Assembly: GCA_016786585.1 (NCBI GenBank)
Contig: JAEUUI010000030.1
Location: 434,001 to 498,000, forward strand
Direction: 5' to 3'
Origin: Cyclobacteriaceae bacterium
Lineage (GTDB): Bacteria > Bacteroidota > Bacteroidia > Cytophagales > Cyclobacteriaceae
DNA: 64,000 bases
Under the pieces are notes generated by a model, which did no database searches, was not told the DNA's origin, and saw only the letters and a program-made list of their open reading frames with translations. Each line of letters begins with the position of its first letter. Position 1 is the stretch's first letter. Of the stretch, positions 2,667-60,262 are shown piece after piece. The position numbers and the translations under genes are program-made.

Positions 2667-2830
2667 TAAAGCAAAGTAAAGCTATTCGTGAAATTTATAA
2701 AAACACGGCCCGTTTTTAAGCCGTGGCTTCCCGAATCTTAACGATATTTTTGGCCAAAATGTATACTTTCGTGATGGTCAGGCGTTTTATTACGAATCTT
2801 TTTTATTGTTGTTGAGCTAAGTTCACAGGC

Positions 2831-5800
2831 ATGAGTAATTCTTCAATGTTGCGTTGGATCGTGTTGTTTCTTTGCCTGTTAGCCGCAGCAGACGGCTTTT
2901 CGCAGCAAAACTATTCACGGTACAATTGGTATTTTGGTAACACAAACCGGGGGATACGATTCAGCCGCTCAACTGCGCAGCCTTCCCTGGTTAACAACAA
3001 GGCAATTCCTTTCGGAACTGGCGGAAGCGCTGTAGCAACCAACCCGATTAATGGCGACCTCCTTTTCTATACAGACGGATCACGCGTGTTCGACATCACG
3101 CACACCCAAATGCCAAATGGTGGCGGACTAACGGTTCAGGCGAATGCCAATCAGCCCGTTGCGATAAGCCCGAAGCCGGGTTCACCAACTCAATATTATG
3201 TGTTTACCAATACGGCCTCTTTTACAACCGGGGGAACTATTCGGGTTACCACGGTAGATATGGCCGCATCGGGTAACGAGATCTTCCCGGAACCGAAAAT
3301 CGGAAACGTAACTACAAAAAATCAGGCAACAGGTTTGGCAGGCAGGTCAGAAGCCATGATCACCGTACCGCATGCCAATGGAACAAACTTCTGGCTGATC
3401 ACACATGAAAACGGACAGGATAATTTCACTGCTACGTTAATCGATGCGTCCGGTACGTTTGCAACTTCAACCTTGTCCTCTAACGTTACGGGCTTCCCGA
3501 TGTCAGCCGCGAACTTCTCGTACCATGCCGCCACCGGAAAACTTGCGGTGTCACCACAAACTGACAATCGCAATGTGGCCATTCTTAACTTTGATAACAC
3601 AACCGGTGCCATCACACTCGACCGGCTTGTGCTTAACTCGGGTGTTAACAGCACAACGCCTCAGGCAATATATGATACCGAATGGAGCCCAAGCGGACGA
3701 TTCCTTTATATCTCCGTTCATGGCGAGCCGGGAGTAACAGCAAATGTGTTTCAGTTTGATATGACCGCTCCCGCGGGAACATCGCTTGTTTCGGTATTGG
3801 ATATTCCGGTTGACAAAAGTTATGGATTACTGATCGCGCCTGACACATCCATTTATCATTTATACCAGGCAACTCCGGGCGGATCATTTTTGCTCGGTCG
3901 TCTGACAGATCTTGATTCGGTAGGCGTAGCGGTTACCCATACACCTGATGCGTTTGGTGGGGCAATTAATTTTAACGGCCGGCAGTTTCCGGAATTCCTC
4001 CCGCGCGCGAACAACAATCTGGTAGTGAGTTTCACTTCAAAAGGAACGTGTTCAAACTCACCTGTATCATTCTTCCCGACTGTATCTCCTGCCGCGGATA
4101 GCCTGGTATGGGATTTTGGTGACGGAAATACGTCAAGCGAATGGAGCCCGGTGCACTCCTATAATAATGGAGGTGCATTTAACGTCTCGGTCACGGCCTT
4201 TCTCAATGGCCAGTCTGCTATTGGCAATGGTGCAGTAAACCTCACCAACTTTACGCTTCAACTAACCATGACGCAGGATACCACGGCCTGTAAGTGCGAG
4301 TTCCCTCCTCCAGTTGGTCAATCATGTAACGGTGGACCATTTAAGGTTACGGTAAAGACTCAGGGCGGAACAGCTCCTCTTACGTTTACATGGTCAAATG
4401 GCGATACGGGTGCTACGCTTACACCTGATTCCGCTGGCTATTACTATGTTGTTGTTACCGATGCAACAGGATGCTCAACCTATGCCGGGGTAAACATCCG
4501 CGAATACGATGCGGTTGACCAGCGAGCCAACATCTGGTACTTCGGACAAAACGCAGGCATTGATTTTAATAAACAGCCACCGGTGCCGATAAGCGGTCCG
4601 CTCAATACACCGGAAGGTTGTTCGGTTATTTGCGATCGGAACGGTGAAGTAATCTTCTCGACCGATGGTCTCCGTGTGTACGACAAAAATGATATTGAAA
4701 TAACCACTACGCTTGTCGGTGGGGTACCTACGCCCATTCCAATTCCACCGGGTATTGGTGGTGAACCGGGATCAACACAATCTGCACTGATCATGCCCGT
4801 GGCCGGAGATGAAACAATCTTCTACATCTTCACTACGCAACAGGTACACGGGTCAAATACGTACGAGCTTCGCTATTCATTATATGATTTAAAACTTAAT
4901 GGTGGCAATGGCGGATTGGTTGAATACAATAAACTTCTCTTCACGCGAAGCACGGAGCGTATCACCGGTAACGGTCAATGGATGATTGCTCACGAGTACG
5001 GAAACAATTCATTCCGCGCGTATCCAGTCTCAACCACAGGGATCGGGAACCCCGTGATCTCAAGTCTTGGTTCTGATCACTTATTAACCGAAGAACTCAA
5101 CGGTCAGGGTTATATGGAACTCACAGGCAATTTGCTGGCCGTTGCGCTTTCAACATCGCCCACCAATAATGCGCTGGAGATATTTGACTTTGTAGATACA
5201 ACCGGTGTCGTTACGAATTTCCGGAGACTTGATTTAAATACTACGTCTGGTCAGGTTTATGGTGTTGAGATTTCCGGAAACAAAATTCTGACGACAATCA
5301 AAGGCACTCCGAATTCATTCCTTCGCGAAGCATACATCGACTTCCAGAATAATCCTGTGTTGATTACGCCCGGGCCGGCCTCCGGACCGATCGCTGCTGA
5401 GCTCGGTGCCATTCAACGCGGACCGGACGGAACAATTTATGTAGCCGTAAATGGAGCCAGCGCGCTTGCCACAGTTAACTTCAATCCGGATACGCTACAG
5501 TTATCCGGACTGGCTCTGGGTGCTTTCCCGCTCGCAGGCGGAACGCAAAGCAAACTCGGTCTTCCTAACTTTGTTCAGCAGATTTTTAACGGAACACCTG
5601 AACCATCGATGACTATCACCGCATTTTGCGGAGGAACGCCAACCATTTTTCAGGGCGTAGGTACTGACCAGATTGATAAATTCCTCTGGACGTTTGGTGA
5701 TGGCTTTACTGCCGATTCAGCAAACGTAGAACATACGTATCCGATTCCCCCACCCGGCACCACGCAAGATTATAACGTAACATTACGAATTACCAACCGA

Positions 5801-8113
5801 TGCGGACTTGATACACTGTTGACTCAGACCATTACAATTTCAGGTCCGCCACCAAACCCTACATTCCTGCCACCGGGTCAGCAACCGGTAGTTTGTAATG
5901 GGCCACTTACGTTACAGGCACTGCCTGCTAATGATCCAACATTAACGTATCTCTGGTCGACTGGTGAAACTACGTTCACAATCAATGTTAACCGGCCGCA
6001 GATTATTTCATTAACGATTACCAACGCAGCAGGCTGTACGTCCAATCGGGATTTGCTGATCGCGGATAACCGGCCGGTGGTCGACCTTGGCCCTGACAGG
6101 AACATTTGCCAGAATACTCCGGTGTCTCCTTTGAATGCACAAAATCCGGGAAGCACGTATGCCTGGGCAATCAATGAAGTTCCTTCAGGAACCGCGCAAA
6201 CACAGTCAGTAAGCACAGCGACAACCGGGGCATTTGAATACCGCGTTCAGGTTACTGATCCGGTTACAACCTGTACGGTAAAAGATTCGGTTGTATTTAC
6301 CATCAACGGCTCACCTGCTTTTACAGCTGTTCCTAATTCTATTGTTTGCGGAACAACAACTGGTCAGATTCAACTTACCATTACCGGACCTGCTGGCGGA
6401 ACATTCACCTATTCGGTTGACGGCTTAACATCCGGCATCAGCCGGTCGAACATTGATCAGACAACAGGCCCTGTTGTACCATCACCAATTACCGGCCTTG
6501 TAGTAGACACGTATGTTATCCAGGTATCTGATCAGATATCCGGTTGCTCGACAACCAGCAGCGTGGGCATTAACGCTACATCACTTACCATCACTAATCT
6601 TGTCGCACAAACACCAACATGCGATCCGGTTGCACTTGAGTTTGACGCCTCGGTTGCGTCCGGAACCTATCGGGTGATCAATTCTGCAACCGGTGCAGTG
6701 GTTGTGCCGGTTACAGCGTTTGCGAGCACGCATGTTATTACGCCTCCCGTTCCGGTGCCCGGCAATTATATTGTTGAGATCAGGCAGGGTGCCTGCGTAA
6801 GTACAGCACCGATCTCGGTTGTCTCCGATCCGAAAGTAACGGTAATGCTTACGGCTGACCCTTGCGTGAATCCTGTTACGTTAACTGAAACAAGCGCGCC
6901 TCCGGGATCATTCTACAGCTGGAGCGGACCGGGTATTGTAAACGTAAACAGTGCAACAACAACTGCCAATGCCCCGCAAGGCATGCAAACATTCAGTGTA
7001 ACCGTTACAAGTCCTGGCCTCTGCCCGACCACACAAAGCATTGACATAAATGTGAATAACAATGTAACGGTCGATTTCACGCAAAGCGATCCGTGTACCG
7101 ATAACGTTACATTGACTGCTACAACTGCGCCTCCGGGCAGCTACACATATCGCTGGTACCGCAATGGTATTGCGATCACGGGTGGTGGCGGACAAACGAT
7201 TCAGGCCACGCTGGCTGACAACGGTATTGATTATCGCGTGGAGGTTGTTAACACAATTTCAGGTTGTGTGTTTACATCAGCCACTAAACCTGTGAATGTA
7301 TTCGGAACAATTGATGTATTCATCGATCCGATTTCACCATGCGAAGGTGATGTATTCAACATTCAGGCGATTGTTCAGCCAACCGGGTTGACGGGCGTAA
7401 CGTATCAATGGTTCCTGGATGGCAACGTAATTGCCGGACAAACAGGCGCTACCCTCACCGGCCAAACCGAAGAAGGCACATACAGCGTAATTGCGACAAG
7501 CGCCAGTGGTTGCCCTACGGAAGAAGTTTCAGGCGAGATTCGTTTTGTCGATAGTCCGGAAGGAAACCTGCCGGCCAAGCGTTTCATCTGTAATCGCCCG
7601 GGTAACCGTGATTGTTCAAACCCTGAACCGAATACCTGTACATTCCAGCTCGAAGCAGGCGATGGAATCTCGTGGCAGTGGTTTAAAGATGGAACAGCCC
7701 TTGCCGGTCAAACCAACCAAACGCTTACCATTACCGAGCCGGGACTATATTCTGTGGAGATTGTTAATTCGTTCGAGTGTTTAACCATCGATCAAACGCT
7801 GGTAGTTGAACAATGTCAGCCGTTGATTGATGTGCCGAACGCGTTCCGTCCGGGAAGTGGTGTGGAGATCAACAAAACATTCTCGGTATTCCCGACCTTC
7901 GTATCGGAAAAAGGCTTCCAGATTTTTATCTACAACCGCTGGGGTGAAATGGTGTATCAGTCGGCCGACCTGAACTTCAAATGGAACGGTACCTACAAAG
8001 GCAACGGAACGTTGTTACCGGGCGGAACTTATACCTATGTAATTAAATTCTTCGGTGACCTGACCACCGCAGGCGAGCAGGAAATCCGCGGCAGCGTGAT
8101 GTTGCTGAGATAA
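2831..8113 (+). CDS. Giant secreted type IX cargo protein with PKD domains and type B C-terminal domain
   Basis: The 1760-residue product has a cleavable signal peptide (ending near ADGFSQQ). A propeller-like block begins with NWYFGNTNRGIRF and is followed by a PKD domain (VWDFGDG, about residue 426). A second copy of the propeller-like block (IWYFGQNAGIDF, from about 565) is followed by a second PKD domain (WTFGDGF, about 952). A long run of immunoglobulin-like, Thr/Pro-rich, Cys-containing segments fills residues 1000-1660. The last 90 residues (NAFRPGSG, IYNRWGEMVYQS, LPGGTYTYVI) match the gliding-associated CHU_C (type B) sorting domain recognised by the type IX secretion system. The protein should be surface-exposed or released; adhesion or polymer binding is inferred. 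It is transcribed divergently from the PorP/SprF gene. Confidence 0.9.
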   Translation: MSNSSMLRWIVLFLCLLAAADGFSQQNYSRYNWYFGNTNRGIRFSRSTAQPSLVNNKAIPFGTGGSAVATNPINGDLLFYTDGSRVFDITHTQMPNGGGLTVQANANQPVAISPKPGSPTQYYVFTNTASFTTGGTIRVTTVDMAASGNEIFPEPKIGNVTTKNQATGLAGRSEAMITVPHANGTNFWLITHENGQDNFTATLIDASGTFATSTLSSNVTGFPMSAANFSYHAATGKLAVSPQTDNRNVAILNFDNTTGAITLDRLVLNSGVNSTTPQAIYDTEWSPSGRFLYISVHGEPGVTANVFQFDMTAPAGTSLVSVLDIPVDKSYGLLIAPDTSIYHLYQATPGGSFLLGRLTDLDSVGVAVTHTPDAFGGAINFNGRQFPEFLPRANNNLVVSFTSKGTCSNSPVSFFPTVSPAADSLVWDFGDGNTSSEWSPVHSYNNGGAFNVSVTAFLNGQSAIGNGAVNLTNFTLQLTMTQDTTACKCEFPPPVGQSCNGGPFKVTVKTQGGTAPLTFTWSNGDTGATLTPDSAGYYYVVVTDATGCSTYAGVNIREYDAVDQRANIWYFGQNAGIDFNKQPPVPISGPLNTPEGCSVICDRNGEVIFSTDGLRVYDKNDIEITTTLVGGVPTPIPIPPGIGGEPGSTQSALIMPVAGDETIFYIFTTQQVHGSNTYELRYSLYDLKLNGGNGGLVEYNKLLFTRSTERITGNGQWMIAHEYGNNSFRAYPVSTTGIGNPVISSLGSDHLLTEELNGQGYMELTGNLLAVALSTSPTNNALEIFDFVDTTGVVTNFRRLDLNTTSGQVYGVEISGNKILTTIKGTPNSFLREAYIDFQNNPVLITPGPASGPIAAELGAIQRGPDGTIYVAVNGASALATVNFNPDTLQLSGLALGAFPLAGGTQSKLGLPNFVQQIFNGTPEPSMTITAFCGGTPTIFQGVGTDQIDKFLWTFGDGFTADSANVEHTYPIPPPGTTQDYNVTLRITNRCGLDTLLTQTITISGPPPNPTFLPPGQQPVVCNGPLTLQALPANDPTLTYLWSTGETTFTINVNRPQIISLTITNAAGCTSNRDLLIADNRPVVDLGPDRNICQNTPVSPLNAQNPGSTYAWAINEVPSGTAQTQSVSTATTGAFEYRVQVTDPVTTCTVKDSVVFTINGSPAFTAVPNSIVCGTTTGQIQLTITGPAGGTFTYSVDGLTSGISRSNIDQTTGPVVPSPITGLVVDTYVIQVSDQISGCSTTSSVGINATSLTITNLVAQTPTCDPVALEFDASVASGTYRVINSATGAVVVPVTAFASTHVITPPVPVPGNYIVEIRQGACVSTAPISVVSDPKVTVMLTADPCVNPVTLTETSAPPGSFYSWSGPGIVNVNSATTTANAPQGMQTFSVTVTSPGLCPTTQSIDINVNNNVTVDFTQSDPCTDNVTLTATTAPPGSYTYRWYRNGIAITGGGGQTIQATLADNGIDYRVEVVNTISGCVFTSATKPVNVFGTIDVFIDPISPCEGDVFNIQAIVQPTGLTGVTYQWFLDGNVIAGQTGATLTGQTEEGTYSVIATSASGCPTEEVSGEIRFVDSPEGNLPAKRFICNRPGNRDCSNPEPNTCTFQLEAGDGISWQWFKDGTALAGQTNQTLTITEPGLYSVEIVNSFECLTIDQTLVVEQCQPLIDVPNAFRPGSGVEINKTFSVFPTFVSEKGFQIFIYNRWGEMVYQSADLNFKWNGTYKGNGTLLPGGTYTYVIKFFGDLTTAGEQEIRGSVMLLR

Positions 8114-8175
8114 TTGGGATAATTCCCATTGTTGAAGAACAATTGATTTCGTTACTTGGGTGCTTACTCAGGTTT

Positions 8176-9792
8176 ATGCGAAAATCAATTGTTCTTTTCT
8201 TTTCAGCGGTTTTAGCCGTTACCACATCCTTTGCGCAATCAAACATCAACATCGTTCCCAGGCCGGTTAAACTGGTTGCATCCAAGGGGTCGCTCGATTT
8301 ATCAAAACGTGCTGCTGCCATCGACCTCTCCGGTGCCGATGTTTCGCTGGCCATGTTTCTGGACGAGTTTCTCAAATCAAAAGATGTGGAAGCGGGCCGC
8401 GATCCGAAAACAAAAGGTTACCCGGTTAAGCTGACGATCGCAAAAGTTGATACACTGGGAGCCGAAGGCTACACGCTGTCTGTTTCCAAAAAAGGAATCT
8501 CAATCCAGGCTAACACCGAAGCCGGATTGTTTTACGGAATACAAACACTCATTCAATTAACTCCGCTAAAAGGAACAAAACTTCCGTATGTCGAGATTAC
8601 CGATTACCCGCGCTTTGCGTATCGCGGACTTCATCTCGATGTGTCACGCCACATGTTCCCGGTTGAGTTTGTAAAGAAATACATCGACCTGATGGCAAAG
8701 CATAAATTCAATCGCTTTCACTGGCACCTTACTGACGATCAGGGCTGGCGCATCGAAATAAAAAATTATCCGCAACTCCAATCCACAGCCGCGTATCGCA
8801 ACGGAACATTAATCGGGCATGCAGGTGAAAATCCTGAACGCTTCGACAACAAACGATACGGTGGCTATTACACACAGGAGGAAGTTAAAGAAGTAATCGA
8901 ATATGCGGCAGCACGTTACGTTACCATCATACCTGAAATTGAAATGCCCGGTCACGCACTGGCAGCGTTGTCAGCTTATCCGCAACTTGGATGTACCGGT
9001 GGGCCGTACGAAGCCTCGATGAAATGGGGCGTGTTCGATCCGGTGTTCTGCGCAGGCAAAGAAGAAACGTTTGTATTTCTGGAAGGCGTGCTCGATGAAG
9101 TGATTGGTTTGTTTCCCGGAAAGTACATTCATATTGGAGGCGATGAATGTCCGAAGACAAGCTGGAAAGCTTGCCCGAACTGCCAGCAGCGCATAAAAGC
9201 ACAAGGCCTGAAAGATGAACACGAACTGCAGAGCTACTTCATCAACCGCATTGAAAAATATGTAAACAGCAAAGGCAAACAGATCATCGGCTGGGATGAA
9301 ATCCTGGAAGGTGGCCTCGCTCCGAATGCAACCGTAATGAGCTGGCGTGGAGAAGAAGGCGGCATTGCTGCGGCCAAACAGAAACACACCGTTATCATGA
9401 CACCCGGCAACTGGTGTTACTTCGATCACTACCAGGATACCAGCAAAACCGAACCACTTTCCATTGGCGGTCTTACTCCCGTTCGCGAAGTGTATACCTA
9501 CGAGCCGCTGCCCGCCCAGCTAACGGGTGACGAGAGCAAATACATTCTCGGTGCGCAGGCCAATCTTTGGACAGAATACATTGAAACTCCCCAACATGCC
9601 GAATACATGGCCTACCCGCGCGCATGCGCCCTGGCCGAAGTGGTGTGGAGCCCAAAAGAAGGTAAAGACTACATCAACTTCCTTCAGCGAATGGAAACCC
9701 ACCTTCAGCGATTGAAAAACTGGAACGTGAATTGCGCCCAGCACCTTGTAAAAGAAATTGAATACCTTAAGAATCCACAGACAAAAAAATAA
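8176..9792 (+). CDS. Beta-N-acetylhexosaminidase, glycoside hydrolase family 20
   Basis: The enzyme removes terminal N-acetylglucosamine or N-acetylgalactosamine from glycans such as chitin oligomers or peptidoglycan fragments. The ATG at 8176 gives 538 residues beginning with a signal peptide (MRKSIVLFFSAVLAVTTSFA); an upstream TTG would place non-signal residues before it. A GH20b-like N-terminal domain is followed by the catalytic barrel with HWHLTDDQGWR, IPEIEMPGH and the catalytic Asp-Glu pair in GGDE (D323, E324), the pair used for substrate-assisted catalysis. It follows the giant cargo gene by 62 bases on the same strand and is followed 7 bases later by a small secreted protein gene. 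Confidence 0.95.
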   Translation: MRKSIVLFFSAVLAVTTSFAQSNINIVPRPVKLVASKGSLDLSKRAAAIDLSGADVSLAMFLDEFLKSKDVEAGRDPKTKGYPVKLTIAKVDTLGAEGYTLSVSKKGISIQANTEAGLFYGIQTLIQLTPLKGTKLPYVEITDYPRFAYRGLHLDVSRHMFPVEFVKKYIDLMAKHKFNRFHWHLTDDQGWRIEIKNYPQLQSTAAYRNGTLIGHAGENPERFDNKRYGGYYTQEEVKEVIEYAAARYVTIIPEIEMPGHALAALSAYPQLGCTGGPYEASMKWGVFDPVFCAGKEETFVFLEGVLDEVIGLFPGKYIHIGGDECPKTSWKACPNCQQRIKAQGLKDEHELQSYFINRIEKYVNSKGKQIIGWDEILEGGLAPNATVMSWRGEEGGIAAAKQKHTVIMTPGNWCYFDHYQDTSKTEPLSIGGLTPVREVYTYEPLPAQLTGDESKYILGAQANLWTEYIETPQHAEYMAYPRACALAEVVWSPKEGKDYINFLQRMETHLQRLKNWNVNCAQHLVKEIEYLKNPQTKK

Positions 9793-9799
9793 CTGCCGT

Positions 9800-10147
9800 A
9801 TGAAAACCATCGCCCGAATTTCGCTCCTGTCCATATTCGCGCTTGCGCTGATGAACTTTCAGTTGATCAAAACCCAGTTGGTCGTTACCGTTCGGAATGA
9901 GCTTGGTAATACCGAAGAAGGTGTTAAAGTGCAGTTGTACGAAACGGAGGAAGACTACAAAGCCGAAAAGAATGCAGCCTTCGAGGGCGTAACCGATAAA
10001 AAAGGTGTCGTGCGATTCAAGGAACTTAAACCGGCCTCATACTTCCTGCTGGCCCGCAAGGACGATAAAGACAACTTTGGCGGAGGCGAACAAACCGGAA
10101 AGCTGGAAGAGAGCCGGATCAATAAAGTTACCGTGATCATTCAATAA
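9800..10147 (+). CDS. Small secreted protein with a carboxypeptidase-regulatory/transthyretin-like fold
   Basis: The ATG at 9800, 7 bases after the hexosaminidase stop, gives 115 residues. The first 25 form a hydrophobic signal or anchor segment. The remainder (LVVTVRNELGNTEEGVKVQL ... GVTDKKGVVRFKELKP ... YFLLARK) reads as a single beta-sandwich of the kind found in carboxypeptidase-regulatory-like or prealbumin-like domains. Those domains bind or space other proteins at the cell surface. No catalytic motif is visible and the function is unknown. The tight spacing suggests co-transcription with the hexosaminidase gene. Confidence 0.75.
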   Translation: MKTIARISLLSIFALALMNFQLIKTQLVVTVRNELGNTEEGVKVQLYETEEDYKAEKNAAFEGVTDKKGVVRFKELKPASYFLLARKDDKDNFGGGEQTGKLEESRINKVTVIIQ

Positions 10148-42569: not shown

Positions 42570-43202
42570 TTAAATCAGCTTGTCATGGTTGGCTTTCGCG
42601 ATTGCCTCCGACTTACTGTTTACCTGAAGCTTCGAGTAAATATTTTTGATGTGTGTTTTCGCTGTTTCCTTGGAAATAAACAGCTCTTCTGAAATCTGTG
42701 TATAGGTTTTTCCTTCCGAGATGAGCTGCAAAATAGTCGTTTCACGCTTGGTAAGCGGTGAATTTGGATTGATGTGATAATTATCAATCACCATGCGTGC
42801 GATGCGGCTACTCATAGGCGCACCACCCCGCACAATCTCTTCCAATGCGCTAAGCAACTCGGTATAGTTTGCGCTTTTGGTAATATATCCGGAGGCACCT
42901 GCCTTTAATGCTTCAAATACTAGGTCACTGTCTTCGTACACGGTTACCATGATAACCTCCGTACTATTGCTTTTATCACGAATAATCTGTGTCCCTTTAA
43001 TTCCATTCATTCCCGGGAGCTCAATATCCATCAACACAATTTCAGGCTTATCGCGGTTGAGGGATGCTATCGCATCTTCGCAATTTCCGTAAGCACCCAC
43101 TACGGCAAAGCGCTGTGAGCTGTTAACAATCAGGCTAAAACTTTCACGGATTTCCTGGTCGTCTTCAATAATAACAACCCGTTTCTTAGTTGGTAGAGAC
43201 AT
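42570..43202 (-). CDS. LuxR/NarL-type response regulator
   Basis: The 210-residue protein has a receiver domain (VVIIEDDQEIRES, acceptor in IVLMDIELPGMNG, KAGASGYITKS) and a C-terminal LuxR helix-turn-helix (TKRETTILQLISEGKTYTQI, then SKETAKTHIKNIYSKL). It overlaps the 3' end of the upstream propeller kinase gene by 17 bases. That kinase has an enzyme domain of the HisKA_3 type, the usual partner of NarL-like regulators. Confidence 0.93.
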   Translation of the reverse strand: MSLPTKKRVVIIEDDQEIRESFSLIVNSSQRFAVVGAYGNCEDAIASLNRDKPEIVLMDIELPGMNGIKGTQIIRDKSNSTEVIMVTVYEDSDLVFEALKAGASGYITKSANYTELLSALEEIVRGGAPMSSRIARMVIDNYHINPNSPLTKRETTILQLISEGKTYTQISEELFISKETAKTHIKNIYSKLQVNSKSEAIAKANHDKLI

Positions 43203-53586: not shown

Positions 53587-54243
53587 CTAAATCGAGCGTA
53601 ACGGGGGGAGTTCGATAATGCCTTGCTGGTAAGCGTATTTTACGAGACCCACGTTCCCCCGAGCATTGACTTTGGAAAGAACATTCGCGCGGTGATTAAA
53701 GAATGTTTTCTCACTGATTTGTAAACGCTTGCTGATCTCGAGCGGTGTGAGTTCCTGGCATATCAGCAAGAGAATTTCCAGTTCGCGTGCGCTGAGCTGC
53801 GTTGAACCAACGTTGCGATGGCGCTTGATTTTATTTTGAAGGACAAGATTGATGATGTCGTTGCGGTAAAAGTCGCGGTCGGCAATCGCATACAGTGCCT
53901 TTTCAACTTCTTCGGGTTCAGCATTTTTGTTCAGAAATCCGTGCACGCCAAGTTCCATCAGGTTAAGGATGAATACCTCCTCGGTATGCATGGTGAGGAT
54001 CAAAATCTTAACATCCGGATGATTGTCCACGAGATGCTTGGCACAATCGAAACCGTTCATCACGGGCATTTCAAGGTCGAGGATAACAATGTTCGGAACT
54101 TCGCCCTGCACCAGACTAATCAATTCCTTGCCATTCGCGGCTTCCTTCACGTCACCTACGCGTTCGAAGGTATTCAGTAAGCGGATCATTCCTTTTCGTA
54201 CAAAGGTGTGATCGTCTGCAATGTATATTTTTAGTTTGCTCAT
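53587..54243 (-). CDS. LuxR/NarL-type response regulator
   Basis: The 218-residue protein has a receiver domain (KIYIADDHTFVRKGM, acceptor in IVILDLEMPVMNG, LGVHGFLNKN) and a LuxR helix-turn-helix (LSARELEILLLICQELTPLE, then SEKTFFNHRANVLSKV). It overlaps the stop of the HisKA_3 kinase gene upstream by 4 bases, so the two form a cognate pair. It is a candidate for binding the 17-bp palindrome ATAGGAGTTACTCCTAT found at 56.1 and 59.7 kb. Confidence 0.93.
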   Translation of the reverse strand: MSKLKIYIADDHTFVRKGMIRLLNTFERVGDVKEAANGKELISLVQGEVPNIVILDLEMPVMNGFDCAKHLVDNHPDVKILILTMHTEEVFILNLMELGVHGFLNKNAEPEEVEKALYAIADRDFYRNDIINLVLQNKIKRHRNVGSTQLSARELEILLLICQELTPLEISKRLQISEKTFFNHRANVLSKVNARGNVGLVKYAYQQGIIELPPLRSI

Positions 54244-55031
54244 GATTCGAGGGGAACGGTCAATTCAATGGCTGCTCCTTTCGGAGTGTTTTCTTTTACC
54301 AATAGTTTTGCCCCGATTTTGTTGGAGCGATTAGTAATGTTCCACCAGCCTACACCGCTGCGAACCTTATCGTTCAGCACAAATCCCACCCCGTCATCCG
54401 AAACTTCCACATCTAGCGCCTGGGCGCTCCACTTAAGCCGCACGCGAATTACATTCGCCTGTGCATGCTTTACGGCATTGTTCACGAGTTCCTGAACAAT
54501 CCGGTATACCATAAGCGCGCGGTCGTCTTTCCAGAAAACGCTTCGCCCTGATTCCTCGTAAATAACTTTCTGGCCTTTTCCATCCAGTCGCGTGCAAAAC
54601 TCTTTAATGGATGAAGCCAAGCCTGTATGATTAAATGCTTCCGGGGTTAATTCCCAGGAAATTCTTCGCACCGAATCCACCGACTGGTCGAGCATTCGCA
54701 TGGTTTCCGAATAAGAGTCTTTCAATTCTCCCGAGAAGTCAACTGAACGGCCCAGAAAGGCTATGTTAAGCTTGGCTGCCCATAATAACGACCCGATTGA
54801 ATCGTGAAGATCGGCTGCGATTCGTTTGCGCTCTGTTTCTGTGGAGTCGATCTGAAGCTGGATCATTTTATTCTGGAACTCGAGGTCCATGATCCTTCGT
54901 TTCTCCTGTTCCTGGAACATTCTTCTTTGATAGAGCGCAATGAAAACAGCAAATCCTACGCAGAGGATAAGCATGCCCATCGAACCGATGATGATTATAT
55001 TGACGACTTCACTAGTCTGTAGTTCTGCCAT
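54240..55031 (-). CDS. HisKA_3-type sensor histidine kinase
   Basis: The 263-residue kinase has one N-terminal membrane helix (IIIIGSMGMLILCVGFAVFI), a coiled-coil stalk (MFQEQEKRRIMDLEFQNKMI), the HisKA_3 acceptor box (KRIAADLHDSIGSLLWA) and an ATPase domain (ELVNNAVKHA, DVEVSDDGVGF). It has almost no sensory region of its own. Its first 12 codons overlap a gene for a seven-helix membrane protein, suggesting that the sensory part is a separate subunit. Confidence 0.9.
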   Translation of the reverse strand: MAELQTSEVVNIIIIGSMGMLILCVGFAVFIALYQRRMFQEQEKRRIMDLEFQNKMIQLQIDSTETERKRIAADLHDSIGSLLWAAKLNIAFLGRSVDFSGELKDSYSETMRMLDQSVDSVRRISWELTPEAFNHTGLASSIKEFCTRLDGKGQKVIYEESGRSVFWKDDRALMVYRIVQELVNNAVKHAQANVIRVRLKWSAQALDVEVSDDGVGFVLNDKVRSGVGWWNITNRSNKIGAKLLVKENTPKGAAIELTVPLES

Positions 55032-56032: not shown

Positions 56033-56091
56033 AGATAATGATTTTTAGTGTTCGTGAATATAAATCAGAATTCCGACTCTCATAATCCTGA

Positions 56092-56108
56092 ATAGGAGTA
56101 ACTCCTAT
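56092..56108. promoter_or_regulatory. 17-bp palindromic site, copy 1
   Basis: ATAGGAGTAACTCCTAT has perfect 8-base arms around one base. It lies 60 bases upstream of the CPPYC protein gene. The same 17-bp site, on the opposite strand, is at 59682-59698. Confidence 0.55.
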
Positions 56109-56188
56109 GGATTCCGAGTTAATTTTCAATTTTTCATTCAAAACCCGATAATACTTCCTCGGTGTCAATTGGTTACCTATGCATTCCC

Positions 56189-56201
56189 GGTAGTAACTCC
56201 C
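56189..56201. promoter_or_regulatory. Degenerate copy of the palindromic site
   Basis: GGTAGTAACTCCC matches the inner part of the 17-bp palindrome with one arm altered. Its centre is 95 bases upstream of copy 1. Confidence 0.35.
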
Positions 56202-56232
56202 ATCAAAAAATTAGTCACATTTATTCGAACGG

Positions 56233-57363
56233 CTACTCGGTCATCAGCTTGTTCGGGATCGTTATCACGATTGTTGTTCCCTCACCAAGTTCTGACGTGA
56301 TGTAGATCGTACCGGAAAGCTTCTCCACCATCTCCTTTACGATGTACAAACCCAAGCCGGCACCCTGGCTGCGATCGGTGGCCCGGTAAAACATATTGAA
56401 CACATTATCAATATAATCTGTATGAATCCCGATGCCATTGTCGCGCACCTGCAGCACACAATGCGCCGGGGTGATCGTAGCGGTTACCGCGATGTTTTTT
56501 TGCGGTTTTGTATCGTCTCCATACTTCAACGCATTAGAGATAAGATTTAACAGGATAACTGATATGCGATAGGCATCTGAATGAAAAGCCGTGTGGTCAT
56601 GAACCTGAATCTGCTTGACGGTTTTGTGGTAAGCGGGCAGATACTGCATCTGACTGAACGCGTTATGAATCATCCGCTCCATGTCTACCGCTTCAATGTT
56701 GAGTTCGCCCCGCGCATTGCGTGAATAATCGAGGATTTCCTTGATCGTCTCATCGAGTTTCATCACGCTCCGTTCGATCATTTCAAAGTAGCTCGTAAGC
56801 ATCTTCGGATCTTTAAACCCTTCCAGCTTAGCAACATTCACCAACCCTAAAATAGATGAGAGTGGTGAGCGCAGGTCGTGCGACACACTGTACACAAACG
56901 AATCAAGCTCCTTATTAATTTTGATAAGCTGTTCGTTCTGCTGCCGCAGGATTTCTTCCTGTGCCTGGCGGTTGGTCTCATACCGGTGCTGGCGCAAGGC
57001 ATACCGGATTGCCAGCGGAAGTCGTGATAAATTTGTTTTCAGAACATAATCATCGGCACCGCGCTTCAAACAATTCACCGCAAACTCTTCCGATACTGCC
57101 CCGGTAACCAGAATAAAGGGAATATCAAGTTTTTTCGACTGGCATATTTTCAATGCCTCCAGTGAGTTAAACTGCGGCAAGGAATGGTCGGACAGGATTA
57201 CATCCGGGTGAAACGAATCGAGCGCTTCCGCAAACTGCTCCCGGGTGTCAACGCGAATGCGGGTGAAATGAACTTTCTCTTTCCGCAAGGCATAGTCAAC
57301 CAAGACAGCATCCTCTTCAACATCTTCCAGAATCAATATTTTGAGTTCTTTTTCCATGCTCAC
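56233..57363 (-). CDS. Receiver-histidine kinase hybrid
   Basis: The 376-residue protein starts with a receiver domain (KILILEDVEEDAVLVDYALR, acceptor in VILSDHSLPQFN, KRGADDYVLKTN). A coiled coil and a HisKA/HATPase kinase follow (YSVSHDLRSPLSSILGLVNV, LISNALKYGDD, DNGIGIHTDYI, GLGLYIVKEM). A receiver placed before the kinase, with no membrane helix, implies that the kinase is controlled by phosphorylation of its own receiver. It is the third gene of a signalling operon and overlaps the preceding receiver gene by 4 bases. Confidence 0.92.
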   Translation of the reverse strand: MSMEKELKILILEDVEEDAVLVDYALRKEKVHFTRIRVDTREQFAEALDSFHPDVILSDHSLPQFNSLEALKICQSKKLDIPFILVTGAVSEEFAVNCLKRGADDYVLKTNLSRLPLAIRYALRQHRYETNRQAQEEILRQQNEQLIKINKELDSFVYSVSHDLRSPLSSILGLVNVAKLEGFKDPKMLTSYFEMIERSVMKLDETIKEILDYSRNARGELNIEAVDMERMIHNAFSQMQYLPAYHKTVKQIQVHDHTAFHSDAYRISVILLNLISNALKYGDDTKPQKNIAVTATITPAHCVLQVRDNGIGIHTDYIDNVFNMFYRATDRSQGAGLGLYIVKEMVEKLSGTIYITSELGEGTTIVITIPNKLMTE

Positions 57364-57788
57364 ATTTTGTTCAACTGCGGGGGCTGATTTAAAATCATCC
57401 AGAAAAAACCGAGTTGAGTAACTGCTTTAACAAACTGGTCGAAATCAACGGGCTTGACGATATATGCATTCACCCCCAGGTTATACGCTTCGATTATATC
57501 TTTATCCTCTTTCGAAGACGTCAGCATTACTACGGGAATAATTTTTCTTTTGTCGTCCGATTTAAGTTTTCGAAGTACTTCAATTCCATCTACACGCGGC
57601 ATCTTAACATCCATCAGGATGAGCTTGGGCATTTCATTACGTTCGTTGTACAGATAATCGAGCGCTTCCTGCCCGTCTTCCAGGTGAAGCAGGTTATTTG
57701 CCAGGTTGTTCTTCTTCAATGCCCGGATTGCGAGCTCAGCATCGTTCGGGTTATCTTCAACCAGTAAAATTTCAGCTGCATTTGCCAT
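57360..57788 (-). CDS. Single-domain response regulator, Rcp1-like
   Basis: The 142-residue receiver begins ILLVEDNPNDAELAIRALKK, has its acceptor in LILMDVKMPRVDGIE and the switch residues in VMLTSSKEDKD, and ends with VNAYIVKPVDFDQF. It has no output domain. The sequence is of the Rcp1 class, typical partners of bacteriophytochrome-like kinases. It lies 13 bases after the CHASE3 kinase gene and overlaps the hybrid kinase gene by 4 bases, so it is placed to relay phosphate between them. Confidence 0.93.
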   Translation of the reverse strand: MANAAEILLVEDNPNDAELAIRALKKNNLANNLLHLEDGQEALDYLYNERNEMPKLILMDVKMPRVDGIEVLRKLKSDDKRKIIPVVMLTSSKEDKDIIEAYNLGVNAYIVKPVDFDQFVKAVTQLGFFWMILNQPPQLNKM

Positions 57789-57801
57789 CGTTCATCTATT
57801 C

Positions 57802-59505
57802 TTAGAGTGAAAAATAAAATTTAGCACCTTCATCAATTTTGCTTTCGGCCCATACTTCCCCTCCATGCCGTTTAACAATTGTTTTCACCAACGCAAGCCC
57901 TACGCCTGTGCCTTCAAATTCATTCATCTTATGCAGGCGCTGAAAAACGCCAAATAACTTATCGGCATACTTCATATCGAAGCCCGCACCATTATCCGTG
58001 ATATAATAAATCTTCTTTCCATCCTTCCGGTACGAACCGATTTCTATTTCAGAAACATCTTTTTTAGAAGAATACTTGAGCGCATTGGAAATCAGGTTAA
58101 TCCAAACCTGCCGGATCATAGCCAGATCTCCTTTTGCCGGCTCCAGATCTAAAATCTTCACCGCTAACTTCCGGTCTTTTATTTCCTCCGTTTGCTCACG
58201 CACAATACTCTCCACTACTTCCCGCATATTAATCGGAGTAATGCTTACCTGTTTTCGCCCCAGTCGCGAAAAATCAAGAAGATCATCGATCAATTGCCCC
58301 ATCCGCACCGTATTCCGGATTATTACCTCGGTTACCCGCCTGGCTTCATCATCCATTTTGTCGTAGTACTCTTCTTTCAGGATGGTCGCATAACCGATGA
58401 TCGACCGCAGCGGAGCACGCAGATCGTGTGATACCGAATAGGTAAAGCCTTCCAGCTCGCGGTTCAAATCCAGGATACGATCCTGCGACTTCTTTCTATC
58501 GGTATTATCGGTAACGGTCGAACGACTTTTTATGTACGTACCATCTTCGGCACGAATGGCAGTGGAATTCAAAATTACCGGCAGCACCGATCCGTCTTTC
58601 CGGATCAATTCAAACTCCAGGTCACTCACAAATCCGGTTTTCATAAATTCCGGAAAAGCTTCTTTGAAAACTTTTACCCCCTGATCATTGAGCAAATCGC
58701 GAAAGCCGATTTTGCCAATTACTTCCTCACGGCTGTAGCCAAGCCAGTTTAATTCTGTTTGATTCATCTCCACGAAAATTCCGTTGGCATCCAGCGAGTG
58801 ATATCCAATCGGGGCGTGATCGTATAAATCTCTTGTATTCTTCAGACTTGTCACCAGTTCACGTTCAGCGTTATTGCGTGCCCCGAGGGTTACATTGATG
58901 GTGTAAAAGAGGTAGGCGACAATAATCATCATTACACCTGCAAGGCCCACAAATGAATACTGAAATTGTTGCACACTGCTATCGGTAATTGTGCTGCGCG
59001 ACCGGAACAACTGCATTTCGGTATCCTGAATGTTTTTGATTGCCTTACGGATTGCATCCGTATTTCGCTTTCCCTGGCCGGTAGCAACCATTGCCTGAGC
59101 TTCCGCAAAACCAGTTTTGCGCAGGGCGACTACGTTTTGTATCCAGTGATTTTGGTAATCGACCATAACGCGAAGTGAATCGATTTTTGGTTGCTGGGCT
59201 GAATGCTTGTCGGTGAGCGAATCAAGCGTATCCAGGTAGTGACCGATGTTCGCAGACGCATCATAATACGGCTCCAGGAAATCTTCATTTCCTGTAAGAA
59301 TATATCCGCGCTGACCTGTTTCCATATCAATCATGGCTTTTACCACCCGCTCGGCCGTGTTTACGACACGGGTAGCGTGCGATTCAAGCGAAGCGGAGTC
59401 CATCAGGCGTTGCGTGCTCATATATGAATACACACCAAGCACCAGCAACACCAGCATGGTTATCGTAAATCCGATTAACACGCGTTTATTGAAGTAGAAC
59501 TTCAT
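57802..59505 (-). CDS. CHASE3-PAS sensor histidine kinase
   Basis: The 567-residue kinase has a membrane helix (VLIGFTITMLVLLVLGVYSY) and a periplasmic CHASE3 domain (MIDMETGQRGYILTGNEDFL). A second helix (YSFVGLAGVMMIIVAYLFYT) precedes a PAS domain (DHAPIGYHSLDANGIFVEMN). The kinase core is YSVSHDLRAPLRSIIGYATI, with NLISNALKYSSK and DNGAGFDMKYA. Together with the two downstream genes it makes a three-component relay. The ligand of the CHASE3 domain is not known. Confidence 0.94.
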   Translation of the reverse strand: MKFYFNKRVLIGFTITMLVLLVLGVYSYMSTQRLMDSASLESHATRVVNTAERVVKAMIDMETGQRGYILTGNEDFLEPYYDASANIGHYLDTLDSLTDKHSAQQPKIDSLRVMVDYQNHWIQNVVALRKTGFAEAQAMVATGQGKRNTDAIRKAIKNIQDTEMQLFRSRSTITDSSVQQFQYSFVGLAGVMMIIVAYLFYTINVTLGARNNAERELVTSLKNTRDLYDHAPIGYHSLDANGIFVEMNQTELNWLGYSREEVIGKIGFRDLLNDQGVKVFKEAFPEFMKTGFVSDLEFELIRKDGSVLPVILNSTAIRAEDGTYIKSRSTVTDNTDRKKSQDRILDLNRELEGFTYSVSHDLRAPLRSIIGYATILKEEYYDKMDDEARRVTEVIIRNTVRMGQLIDDLLDFSRLGRKQVSITPINMREVVESIVREQTEEIKDRKLAVKILDLEPAKGDLAMIRQVWINLISNALKYSSKKDVSEIEIGSYRKDGKKIYYITDNGAGFDMKYADKLFGVFQRLHKMNEFEGTGVGLALVKTIVKRHGGEVWAESKIDEGAKFYFSL

Positions 59506-59755
59506 AATTAATTAAGCCAACATTACTTGAAGCAGGGTGCGGGAATATAACCATTGATGCGTACGTTAATCGAAACAAAATCTGTTTTCGATCAATTTTC
59601 ACGGTCGAATGGAGGGTAGAAATTCCGGTTCCCCGATTCAATCCGTTATTTAATTTTTTTTTTAAGATTTCTTCCGTTTCTATAGGAGTTACTCCTATTC
59701 CAGACCATTATTTTAAGTGTATGGTCTTACCTTGTTTCGAATAATTTCCTGAAAC
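59506..59755. other. Divergent spacer with the palindromic site
   Basis: The 250 bases contain no gene. They separate the CHASE3 kinase gene (left) from the DNA glycosylase gene (right). The main visible signal is the 17-bp palindrome at 59682-59698. A T-rich tract precedes it, and TTACCTTG near 59728 resembles a -7 box with a mismatch. Confidence 0.5.
59682..59698. promoter_or_regulatory. 17-bp palindromic site, copy 2
   Basis: ATAGGAGTTACTCCTAT is the exact reverse complement of the site at 56092-56108 and is followed by TC, as in that copy read on the - strand. It is 58 bases upstream of the glycosylase ATG and 177 bases upstream of the CHASE3 kinase start. Confidence 0.55.
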
Positions 59756-60262
59756 ATGCGGTATACACCCCACATAATTGGCCGGAAAACAAGTCTTTTA
59801 CCCATTGCAGACCACAATAGTCGTGTACTTATTTTAGATACAATGCCTGGAGAAAAATCATTAATTCTTCAGCAGTACTACGCGTGTAAGAGTAATTTTT
59901 TCTGGAAAATACTTTTTAAAGTATTGAAAGTGCCGAACATCACCGACTACCGGCTTAAAAAACAGTTGTTATTCAAACATGGCATTGCACTCTGGAACGT
60001 ACTAGAATTCGGTGAACAAAAAGCAAACGGTGAATACACCGTAACCAGTGAAACATCAAACGATTTTTATACATTCTTTCAGAACCATCCCAACATCAAT
60101 CGCATTATTTTCAACGGTAACAACGCGGCTGAGTACTATGCCCAGCATGTTGGATACTATCAGGGGTTAACCATGGAGATTCTGCCTTCCACCAGCGCGT
60201 TGAACACCTGGAAATCGTTCGAAGAAAAAGCCGAAGTGTGGGCCAACGCACTTGCCCGTTAA
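59756..60262 (+). CDS. Uracil/hypoxanthine-DNA glycosylase family protein
   Basis: The 168-residue protein belongs to the uracil-DNA glycosylase superfamily, nearest to the hypoxanthine-DNA glycosylase (family 6) type. It shows RVLILDTMPGEKSLILQQYY, the FFW stretch, GIALWNVLEF and the LPSTSALN C-terminal loop. The enzyme would remove deaminated bases. The second motif LDTMPG departs from the common LGSxPG. It is the only DNA-repair gene in the window, and it lies next to a regulatory palindrome. Confidence 0.8.
   Translation: MRYTPHIIGRKTSLLPIADHNSRVLILDTMPGEKSLILQQYYACKSNFFWKILFKVLKVPNITDYRLKKQLLFKHGIALWNVLEFGEQKANGEYTVTSETSNDFYTFFQNHPNINRIIFNGNNAAEYYAQHVGYYQGLTMEILPSTSALNTWKSFEEKAEVWANALAR

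Follow-up and report, generated by a model that had tools for sequence, protein, structure and literature searches.

A 17-Base-Pair Palindrome as the Putative Operator of a NarL/FixJ-Type Regulator at Its Own Operon and at Variable Defence Genes in a Lineage of Cyclobacteriaceae

Introduction

Two-component systems of the NarL/FixJ type, such as NarXL and GacSA, combine a HisKA_3 sensor kinase with an adjoining response regulator built from REC and GerE domains. A pair of this kind is encoded in the stretch of DNA analysed here (henceforth, the window), which comprises 64,000 nucleotides (nt) of a Cyclobacteriaceae bacterium (assembly GCA_016786585.1, contig JAEUUI010000030.1, positions 434,001 to 498,000 of the forward strand). 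The subject of this article is a palindrome of 17 base pairs (bp) that occurs twice in the window, once ahead of the operon of this regulator (53587-54243), which opens with a gene named for the CPPYC motif of its product, and once between the genes of a DNA-deoxyinosine glycosylase and a CHASE3 kinase. The palindrome, for brevity called the operator below, is probably the binding site of this regulator, which would activate its own operon together with defence and signalling genes that vary between species.

In Pseudomonas, the two-component system at the head of the Gac/Rsm pathway governs a species-variable set of phage-defence systems, including PARIS, along with other functions (PMC11888443). 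The set described here is similar in placing a variable choice of defence genes, and other functions too, under what would be one two-component system; however, GacA controls translation by way of small RNAs and RsmA, whereas here a DNA operator stands at promoters and the phylum is a different one. WYL repressors control several individual defence pathways, and control by quorum sensing has also been described (PMC11888443); these cases likewise involve transcriptional control of defence genes, but WYL proteins act on single pathways, whereas one operator is common to many unrelated systems here. The same source treats the co-regulation of genetically unlinked defence systems as largely open (PMC11888443). 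Literature searches retrieved no DNA-operator defence regulon in Bacteroidota, Gac/Rsm being the nearest concept, and the 13-mer AGGAGTTACTCCT was not found in the literature searched.

Among NCBIfam models, the regulator scores highest against UvrY/SirA/GacA (133.7 bits); however, this equivalog (NF007018) has a cut-off of 280 bits, and the regulator reaches the cut-off of none of the 25 models listed. The locus further differs from NarL/FixJ systems in that the half-sites of the operator stand head to head around one base, and in that the operon adds the CPPYC protein and an unassigned membrane protein. The promoters of Bacteroidota that depend on sigma-ABfr have TTTG at -33 and TAnnTTTG at -7, with a T at -12 (PMC6847099); the same -7 element is found downstream of the operator, and it is on this element that the likeness rests, whereas the operator itself, near -50 and at fixed spacing, is an addition.

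Results

Occurrence of the palindrome

The palindrome is genuine and far too frequent for chance. As the sequence-only reading had stated, the 17-mer occurs twice in the window without a mismatch, where chance would give 0.01 matches at up to three mismatches. The spacings of that reading were also reproduced, with 59 nt between operator 1 and the ATG of the CPPYC gene (56032, minus strand), and 57 and 176 nt between operator 2 and the ATGs of the glycosylase (59756, plus strand) and CHASE3 kinase (59505, minus strand) genes. Its placement of the copies on opposite strands holds for the T-centred readings, which face the CPPYC and glycosylase genes; the otherwise perfect symmetry is broken by the central base (T or A), which alone sets the strand. 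A degenerate third site, proposed at 56189-56201, had to be dropped because it lies more than two mismatches from the 13-mer core and more than three from the 17-mer, and is thus indistinguishable from chance.

Across the source genome of the window (G000; 4.19 Mb, 30 contigs), with the pattern read backwards as the control, the 17-mer ATAGGAGTNACTCCTAT has 18 exact copies and 29 places at up to two mismatches (control 1), and the inner 15-mer TAGGAGTNACTCCTA occurs 22 times (control 0). Among the 17 genomes of the genus comparison, exact 15-mers were also found in G011 (23; control 0), G002 (10), G007 (5), G001 (4), and G016 (2), and none in the 11 other members searched. Beyond the genus, no exact 15-mer was found in 22 genomes from other genera of the same family and order, and a sample of 395 genomes from across the class added only G289 (4) and G085 (1). 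All four G289 sites fall within tandem arrays (unit about 21 bp) and were discounted as artefactual; the regulator, expected in G289, was not found there (best match 35%). The single G085 site is compatible with chance.

The site set comprises 95 non-redundant sites from 10 assemblies, 65 of them exact (from G000, G001, G002, G007, G011, and G016) and 30 with one mismatch; 22 of the 23 exact G011 sites entered the position count, one having been merged for its near-identical context. Measured against heuristic open reading frames (ORFs) of at least 100 amino acids (aa), which are not curated genes, only 3 of the 65 exact sites and 3 of the 30 one-mismatch sites fall within an ORF, compared with 82% of random nearby positions, so that the many random copies inside genes, named by the sequence-only reading as grounds against an operator, did not materialize. 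The next start codon lies -47 to 193 nt from the site, mostly about 40-160 nt. Symmetric natural variants of the operator are TAGGAATTATTCCTA and TGGGAGTTACTCCCA. An asymmetric one-mismatch variant, TAGTAGTAACTCCTA, recurs three times in G007 and once in G001, and is perhaps a second class of site.

Position relative to promoters

The promoter test covered 61 sites, after similar downstream sequences had been merged and sites with genes about equally distant on both sides, or with none within 200 nt, had been excluded; a -7 box was accepted at a score of 4, for which the background is about 4% per side. On the gene side, the Bacteroidota -7 box TAnnTTTG peaks 30 nt past the 15-mer (0 of 5000 permutations). 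The opposite side also gave 0 of 5000, its best window being position 0, the flank of the palindrome itself; at +28 to +30 the opposite side scores 2.4-2.5 vs 3.0-3.1 on the gene side. A rerun from position 3, with single positions and stricter merging, placed the peak at exactly 30 both in G000 (19 sites, 0 of 5000) and in the other assemblies (29 sites including some orthologues of the G000 set, 3 of 5000), and the merged 38 sites gave 0 of 5000. Scores of at least 4 on one side or both were reached at 35 of the 65 exact sites, against about 8% expected, and of 41 exact sites, 31 have the T-centred strand directed at the gene (p = 0.0015).

As the box begins at +30 and its first T corresponds to -12, the centre of the operator falls near -50 and its end near -42. 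This geometry supports the palindrome as a promoter operator common to many genes, with its centre where an activator may be expected, and the fixed spacing, taken on the -7 element alone, is that of a putative Bacteroidota promoter with an upstream activator site.

The candidate regulator

Regulator 53587-54243 exceeds the cut-offs of PF00072 (87.3 bits) and PF00196 (46.5 bits) and thus has the receiver and GerE/LuxR helix-turn-helix (HTH) domains of the NarL/FixJ type. Its four closest named relatives come from uncultured assemblies labelled Cyclobacteriaceae, Flammeovirgaceae (two), and Bacteroidetes. The orthologues split into two subclades, each on one side of a branch with support of 99/98 in a tree that does not include G443, and the recognition helix reads T[FY]FNHR in subclade A vs TVRNHR in subclade B. 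An operator with at most one mismatch precedes the CPPYC-type gene in nine of nine operons with T[FY]FNHR (the start in G443 was set by eye), its nearest copy beginning about 74-106 nt ahead of the start codon, whereas none of the six subclade-B operons with upstream sequence has one. A seventh subclade-B locus (L075) has no site at up to three mismatches, and a conserved palindrome of their own was looked for in the sister-subclade promoters and not found.

That the presence of the operator should follow from the helix was set down as a prediction before genomes outside the genus were inspected, where 20 of 22 regulator matches were taken (G023 and G477 were left out). Two of these 20 have T[FY]FNHR, namely, G443 and G480. 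In G443, the only such operon with upstream sequence, the operator lies, as predicted, ahead of the CPPYC-type operon; in G480, a locus inspected before the prediction was set, the upstream sequence is missing and TGGGAGTTACTCCCA directly follows the regulator. For the remaining 18, whose helices differ (one, TYFIHR in L295, is similar), the available bases contain no site within two mismatches, again as predicted. In the genus itself, sites at up to one mismatch exceed the control in all eight genomes with subclade A; among the nine without it, seven have none, G008 has two one-mismatch sites (control 2), and G016 is taken up in the Discussion. In G001, G007, and G015, moreover, the regulator is followed by a stand-alone copy of its DNA-binding domain, situated behind operator-like variants with three, one, and two mismatches, respectively.

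This co-distribution makes regulator 53587-54243 the best candidate binder of the operator, as the sequence-only reading had proposed. The argument by which that reading arrived there fared less well. NarL binds inverted heptamers of the consensus TACYYMT-N2-AKRRGTA, and TACTCCT can indeed be read on one strand of the palindrome; however, the halves form AGGAGT-N-ACTCCT, with a polarity opposite to that of the 7-2-7 NarL operator and a single central base, and the unusual recognition helix EKTFFNHR also counts against a TACYYMT site. The extent of the regulon, its promoter geometry, and the defence genes lay beyond the reach of that reading.

In G011, the end of contig C4 (L082) and the start of contig C5 (L091) overlap by exactly 127 bp, and at the C5 edge the stand-alone receiver of the window cluster is fused in frame to the DNA-binding domain of the regulator. 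Such a fusion, if real, is suggestive of a tie between the CHASE3 branch and the operator; an assembly effect is possible.

Target genes

In G000, the genes behind operators include those of the glycosylase, the CHASE3 kinase, PAS kinases (L021 and L034), a hybrid kinase (L022), and a subtilase behind a lipoprotein-like gene (L018). The same genome also has defence-like targets: one AAA protein matches NsnB (6.3e-61), two proteins contain SIR2 domains, a ubiquitin-like operon includes BilD (6.7e-17), and an island of type I restriction genes (HsdR and HsdM, as assigned by Pfam) additionally encodes AAA and GmrSD proteins; the third gene of a further target operon matches mREase_IV (1.8e-12). 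In G011, the targets comprise two ThsB proteins (2e-58 and 3.5e-120), AriAB (7.6e-139), a type I methylase (MTase_I, HsdM; 8.5e-264), a PifA-like protein (4.7e-41), and an OLD-like AAA protein (1.5e-21), and in G007 PDC-M49A (6.8e-30). Thus, more than one genome has a known defence gene as the first or second gene after an operator. The proteins compared in detail (ten from G000, and those from G011 and G007) were chosen as defence-looking or as earlier scorers, which biases their counts; five of the ten from G000 had no or weak matches. The unbiased set consists of the 106 target-side genes of the exact G000 and G011 sites.

In L108 of G011 (2700-10100), operators lie beside genes, assigned by eye, for what may be a membrane-fusion protein (428 aa), for a peptide of 78 aa bearing a GG motif, and for what may be an ABC transporter of the peptidase type; a bacteriocin or peptide export cluster is a possible member of the regulon.

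Defence cassettes and their tail gene

Four dispersed cassettes in two species carry SIR2-STAND, two ThsB genes (Thoeris), AriAB (PARIS), and unassigned cargo, respectively. Their common 5' block extends from the operator to 42-91 nt past its first base (76-91% identity). In five of the six pairwise alignments, the start of the block coincides with the operator or lies no more than 2 nt away, and in the sixth it lies 25 nt earlier; some pairs also have short common stretches further upstream. At the 3' end, the cassettes have in common a gene of 248 aa (72-78% identity over 756-962 nt), and between the two no match was found at 1e-5 among the four.

There are four copies of the 248-aa gene in G000 and five in G011, and none was found at 1e-15 in the 15 other genus genomes. 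An operator lies upstream of all nine copies (six exact, two with one mismatch, and one with two) at a distance of 2.7 to 15.8 kilobases (kb), three of the nine stretches (L325, L327, and L328) having been chosen to reach an operator already known there. The gene is present in 31 of the 395 genomes of the class, G000 included, and no operator was found at 12 loci inspected in other genomes, some of which were short stretches; viral contigs gave 16 pattern matches and no confirmed relative, and plasmids no match. Outside this lineage, the gene is therefore specific neither to defence nor to this operator. Since it occurs there with varied neighbours and without the operator, it is rather an independent element of wider distribution, which has been combined with the operator in this lineage.

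A tandem repeat array with units of 21 bp lies just behind the 248-aa gene in the two loci scanned (L313, 5263-5558, and L314, 8381-8621). In two type I restriction islands, a gene for a NERD-domain protein (by Pfam for the L325 copy) lies on the opposite strand just ahead of the 248-aa gene (L325:15046-16107 and L327).

Features of the window

Coordinates are collected in Table 1. Neither the CPPYC protein nor the 215-aa hydrophobic protein belongs to a Pfam, NCBIfam, or PHROGs family, and a fold model of the former, with a mean predicted local distance difference test (pLDDT) score of 80, has no match in PDB at E<=0.001. The CPPYC-type proteins of G001, G007, G015, and G443 have a lipoprotein-like N-terminus (by eye). 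The family adjoins the membrane protein and the kinase in the operons inspected, and the CPPYC protein could be the sensed or the sensing part of the system. One-mismatch sites also lie 41 nt (G006) and 56 nt (G014) ahead of CHASE3-like kinases (by eye).

Table 1. Positions of the operators, predicted promoter elements, and genes considered in this work (window coordinates unless a locus is named).
Feature	Position	Strand	Remarks
Operator 1, ATAGGAGTTACTCCTAT	56092..56108	-	Exact; precedes the CPPYC-membrane protein-kinase-regulator operon
Operator 2, ATAGGAGTTACTCCTAT	59682..59698	+	Between the glycosylase and CHASE3 kinase genes; same place in G002 and G011
Predicted -7 box, TATATTCA	56055..56062	-	Starts 30 nt past the operator 1 15-mer, CPPYC side; same in G002
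Predicted -7 box, TACCTTGT	59728..59735	+	+30 from operator 2, glycosylase side; same in G002 and G011
Weak -7-like element, TAAATAAC	59645..59652	-	+30, CHASE3 kinase side; score 3.0 (cut 4); same in G002 and G011
CPPYC gene, 113 aa	55691..56032	-	Invariant C-terminal CP..C; ends in CPPYC and seven residues
Hydrophobic protein, 215 aa	54995..55642	-	Probably integral membrane; kept in the operon
HisKA_3 sensor histidine kinase	54240..55031	-	Pfam
NarL/FixJ-type response regulator	53587..54243	-	Pfam PF00072 and PF00196; recognition helix EKTFFNHR
REC-histidine kinase	56233..57363	-	Domain search
Stand-alone receiver (REC) protein	57360..57788	-	Domain search
CHASE3-PAS histidine kinase	57802..59505	-	Possible second target of operator 2
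DNA-deoxyinosine glycosylase	59756..60262	+	TIGR04274, NCBIfam 135.3 bits (cut-off 80); predicted target of operator 2
248-aa tail gene	L312:6776-7522; also L313-L315, L325-L329		Ends variable cargo blocks; no Pfam family

Discussion

At the sequence level, the operator stands before the regulator's own operon and before many unlinked genes, which is the layout of an autoregulated regulon. In the mechanism that is proposed, regulator 53587-54243, presumably in its phosphorylated form, would bind the palindrome as a dimer, immediately ahead of the promoter and centred near -50, and activate transcription. It would thereby amplify its own operon, that is, the CPPYC protein, the membrane protein, the HisKA_3 kinase, and the regulator itself, and would also control the glycosylase, further sensor kinases, lipoproteins, and secreted proteins, as well as changeable anti-phage operons, several of which would consist of an operator-promoter, variable cargo, and the 248-aa tail gene. 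The signal is perhaps sensed through the CPPYC and membrane proteins. A bolder proposal makes the pair a master switch of innate immunity, in which the 17-bp operator is the mark of a plug-in regulon, species differ in the horizontally variable anti-phage systems that they place behind it (Thoeris, PARIS, type I restriction, SIR2-STAND, NsnB, and ubiquitin-like), often as cassettes closed by the 248-aa gene, and a single signal received by the CPPYC/membrane-protein/kinase sensor arms them all; the chances of this proposal are about even.

Several observations weigh against the operator-regulator assignment or its extension to defence. G016 lacks a subclade-A regulator despite its two exact sites; G006, G014, and G015 have such a regulator and just 3-4 sites; and G011, with 23 sites, is an assembly in which the partner kinase is absent (best match 29%) and the regulator is split over contig ends. 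Only 20 of the 61 non-redundant gene-oriented sites score at least 4 near +30, the other 41 falling below. Among defence operons, the +30 box (at least 4) is present at sites L016-13059, L018-7530, L022-16923, L028, L096, and L106-2483, and absent at L033, L035, L107-12059, L109, L111-2345 (3.8), L114, L115, L117-2515, and L119; the four cassettes show TAC at about +25 instead (by eye), which may reflect another mode of action. The association with the 248-aa gene leans partly on distances of 15.8 and 11.8 kb or on a two-mismatch site, and the two-mismatch and most distant cases are weak alone. At 1e-10, the 106 target-side genes matched 86 PADLOC families, and a control of 106 genes from 11 places in G000 alone still matched 28, of which the 25 shown have one member each and include many helicase families. 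An enrichment of defence genes behind operators is no more than likely, because the control comes from G000 only and the comparison counts families and not distinct proteins.

The offset TAC of the cassettes also bears on the sign of regulation, since the same regulator might act through the same operator mainly as a repressor, or with mixed signs, where -7 elements lie at +30 or about +25, half a helical turn apart. That the four cassette promoters have this TAC in common fits such a scheme, and repressors are known to silence some defence genes (PMC11888443); at the +30 promoters, however, the operator lies wholly upstream of the expected -33 and -7 positions. Such a location is unusual for simple repression, and a predominantly repressive or mixed role is accordingly held to be unlikely. 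It is quite unlikely, too, that another protein is the binder, for example, regulator 42570-43202 or one of the stand-alone DNA-binding proteins, with the CPPYC operon as merely another target. Regulator 42570-43202 is kept (at least 81%) in G000, G002, G011, and the exceptional G016, and G000 and G011 hold extra stand-alone HTH genes, one of them 82 nt from an exact operator (L120); yet those four are the only genomes among the 17 of the genus with close orthologues, whereas G001, G007, and G015 (best match 43-52%) and G006 and G014 (none at 1e-35) all carry the operator at the CPPYC operon, and the co-distribution with the recognition helix better fits regulator 53587-54243.

Two further explanations would remove the palindrome from transcriptional control altogether. 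A repeat, an attachment site, or the end of a mobile element could account for the 5' blocks of the four cassettes, which begin so close to the operator; however, outside these cassettes little sequence besides the 17-mer is common to the 61 sites, unlike repetitive extragenic palindromic (REP) or mobile repeats, and the conservation at the core operon promoter across genera and the gene-side spacing of the -7 box make this account very improbable. Scarcely credible is an action in RNA, as a hairpin, terminator, or translation switch, even though the palindrome contains AGGAG and its complement and two 24-mers fold into stems of 7 and 10 bp (-5.4 and -11.1 kcal/mol). The -7 peak 30 nt downstream places the palindrome upstream of the transcript, and on this promoter position the hairpin was rejected; moreover, the distance from palindrome to start codon varies widely, for the most part between 20 and 190 nt, no run of U follows (by eye), and the natural lack of Shine-Dalgarno sequences in Bacteroidota (PMC6847099) counts against it as well.

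With the palindrome taken as the operator of regulator 53587-54243, it offers a direct handle on this regulon, predicting its member genes, the regulator that binds, and possible sites of undescribed defence systems; the genes behind operators in L313, L326, L328, and L329, for example, are places where such systems may sit. That the four cassettes pair a single kind of promoter with differing cargo suggests that new immune genes can be taken up directly into an existing control circuit. If true, the finding suggests that a single signalling system turns on an entire group of defences in this genome.

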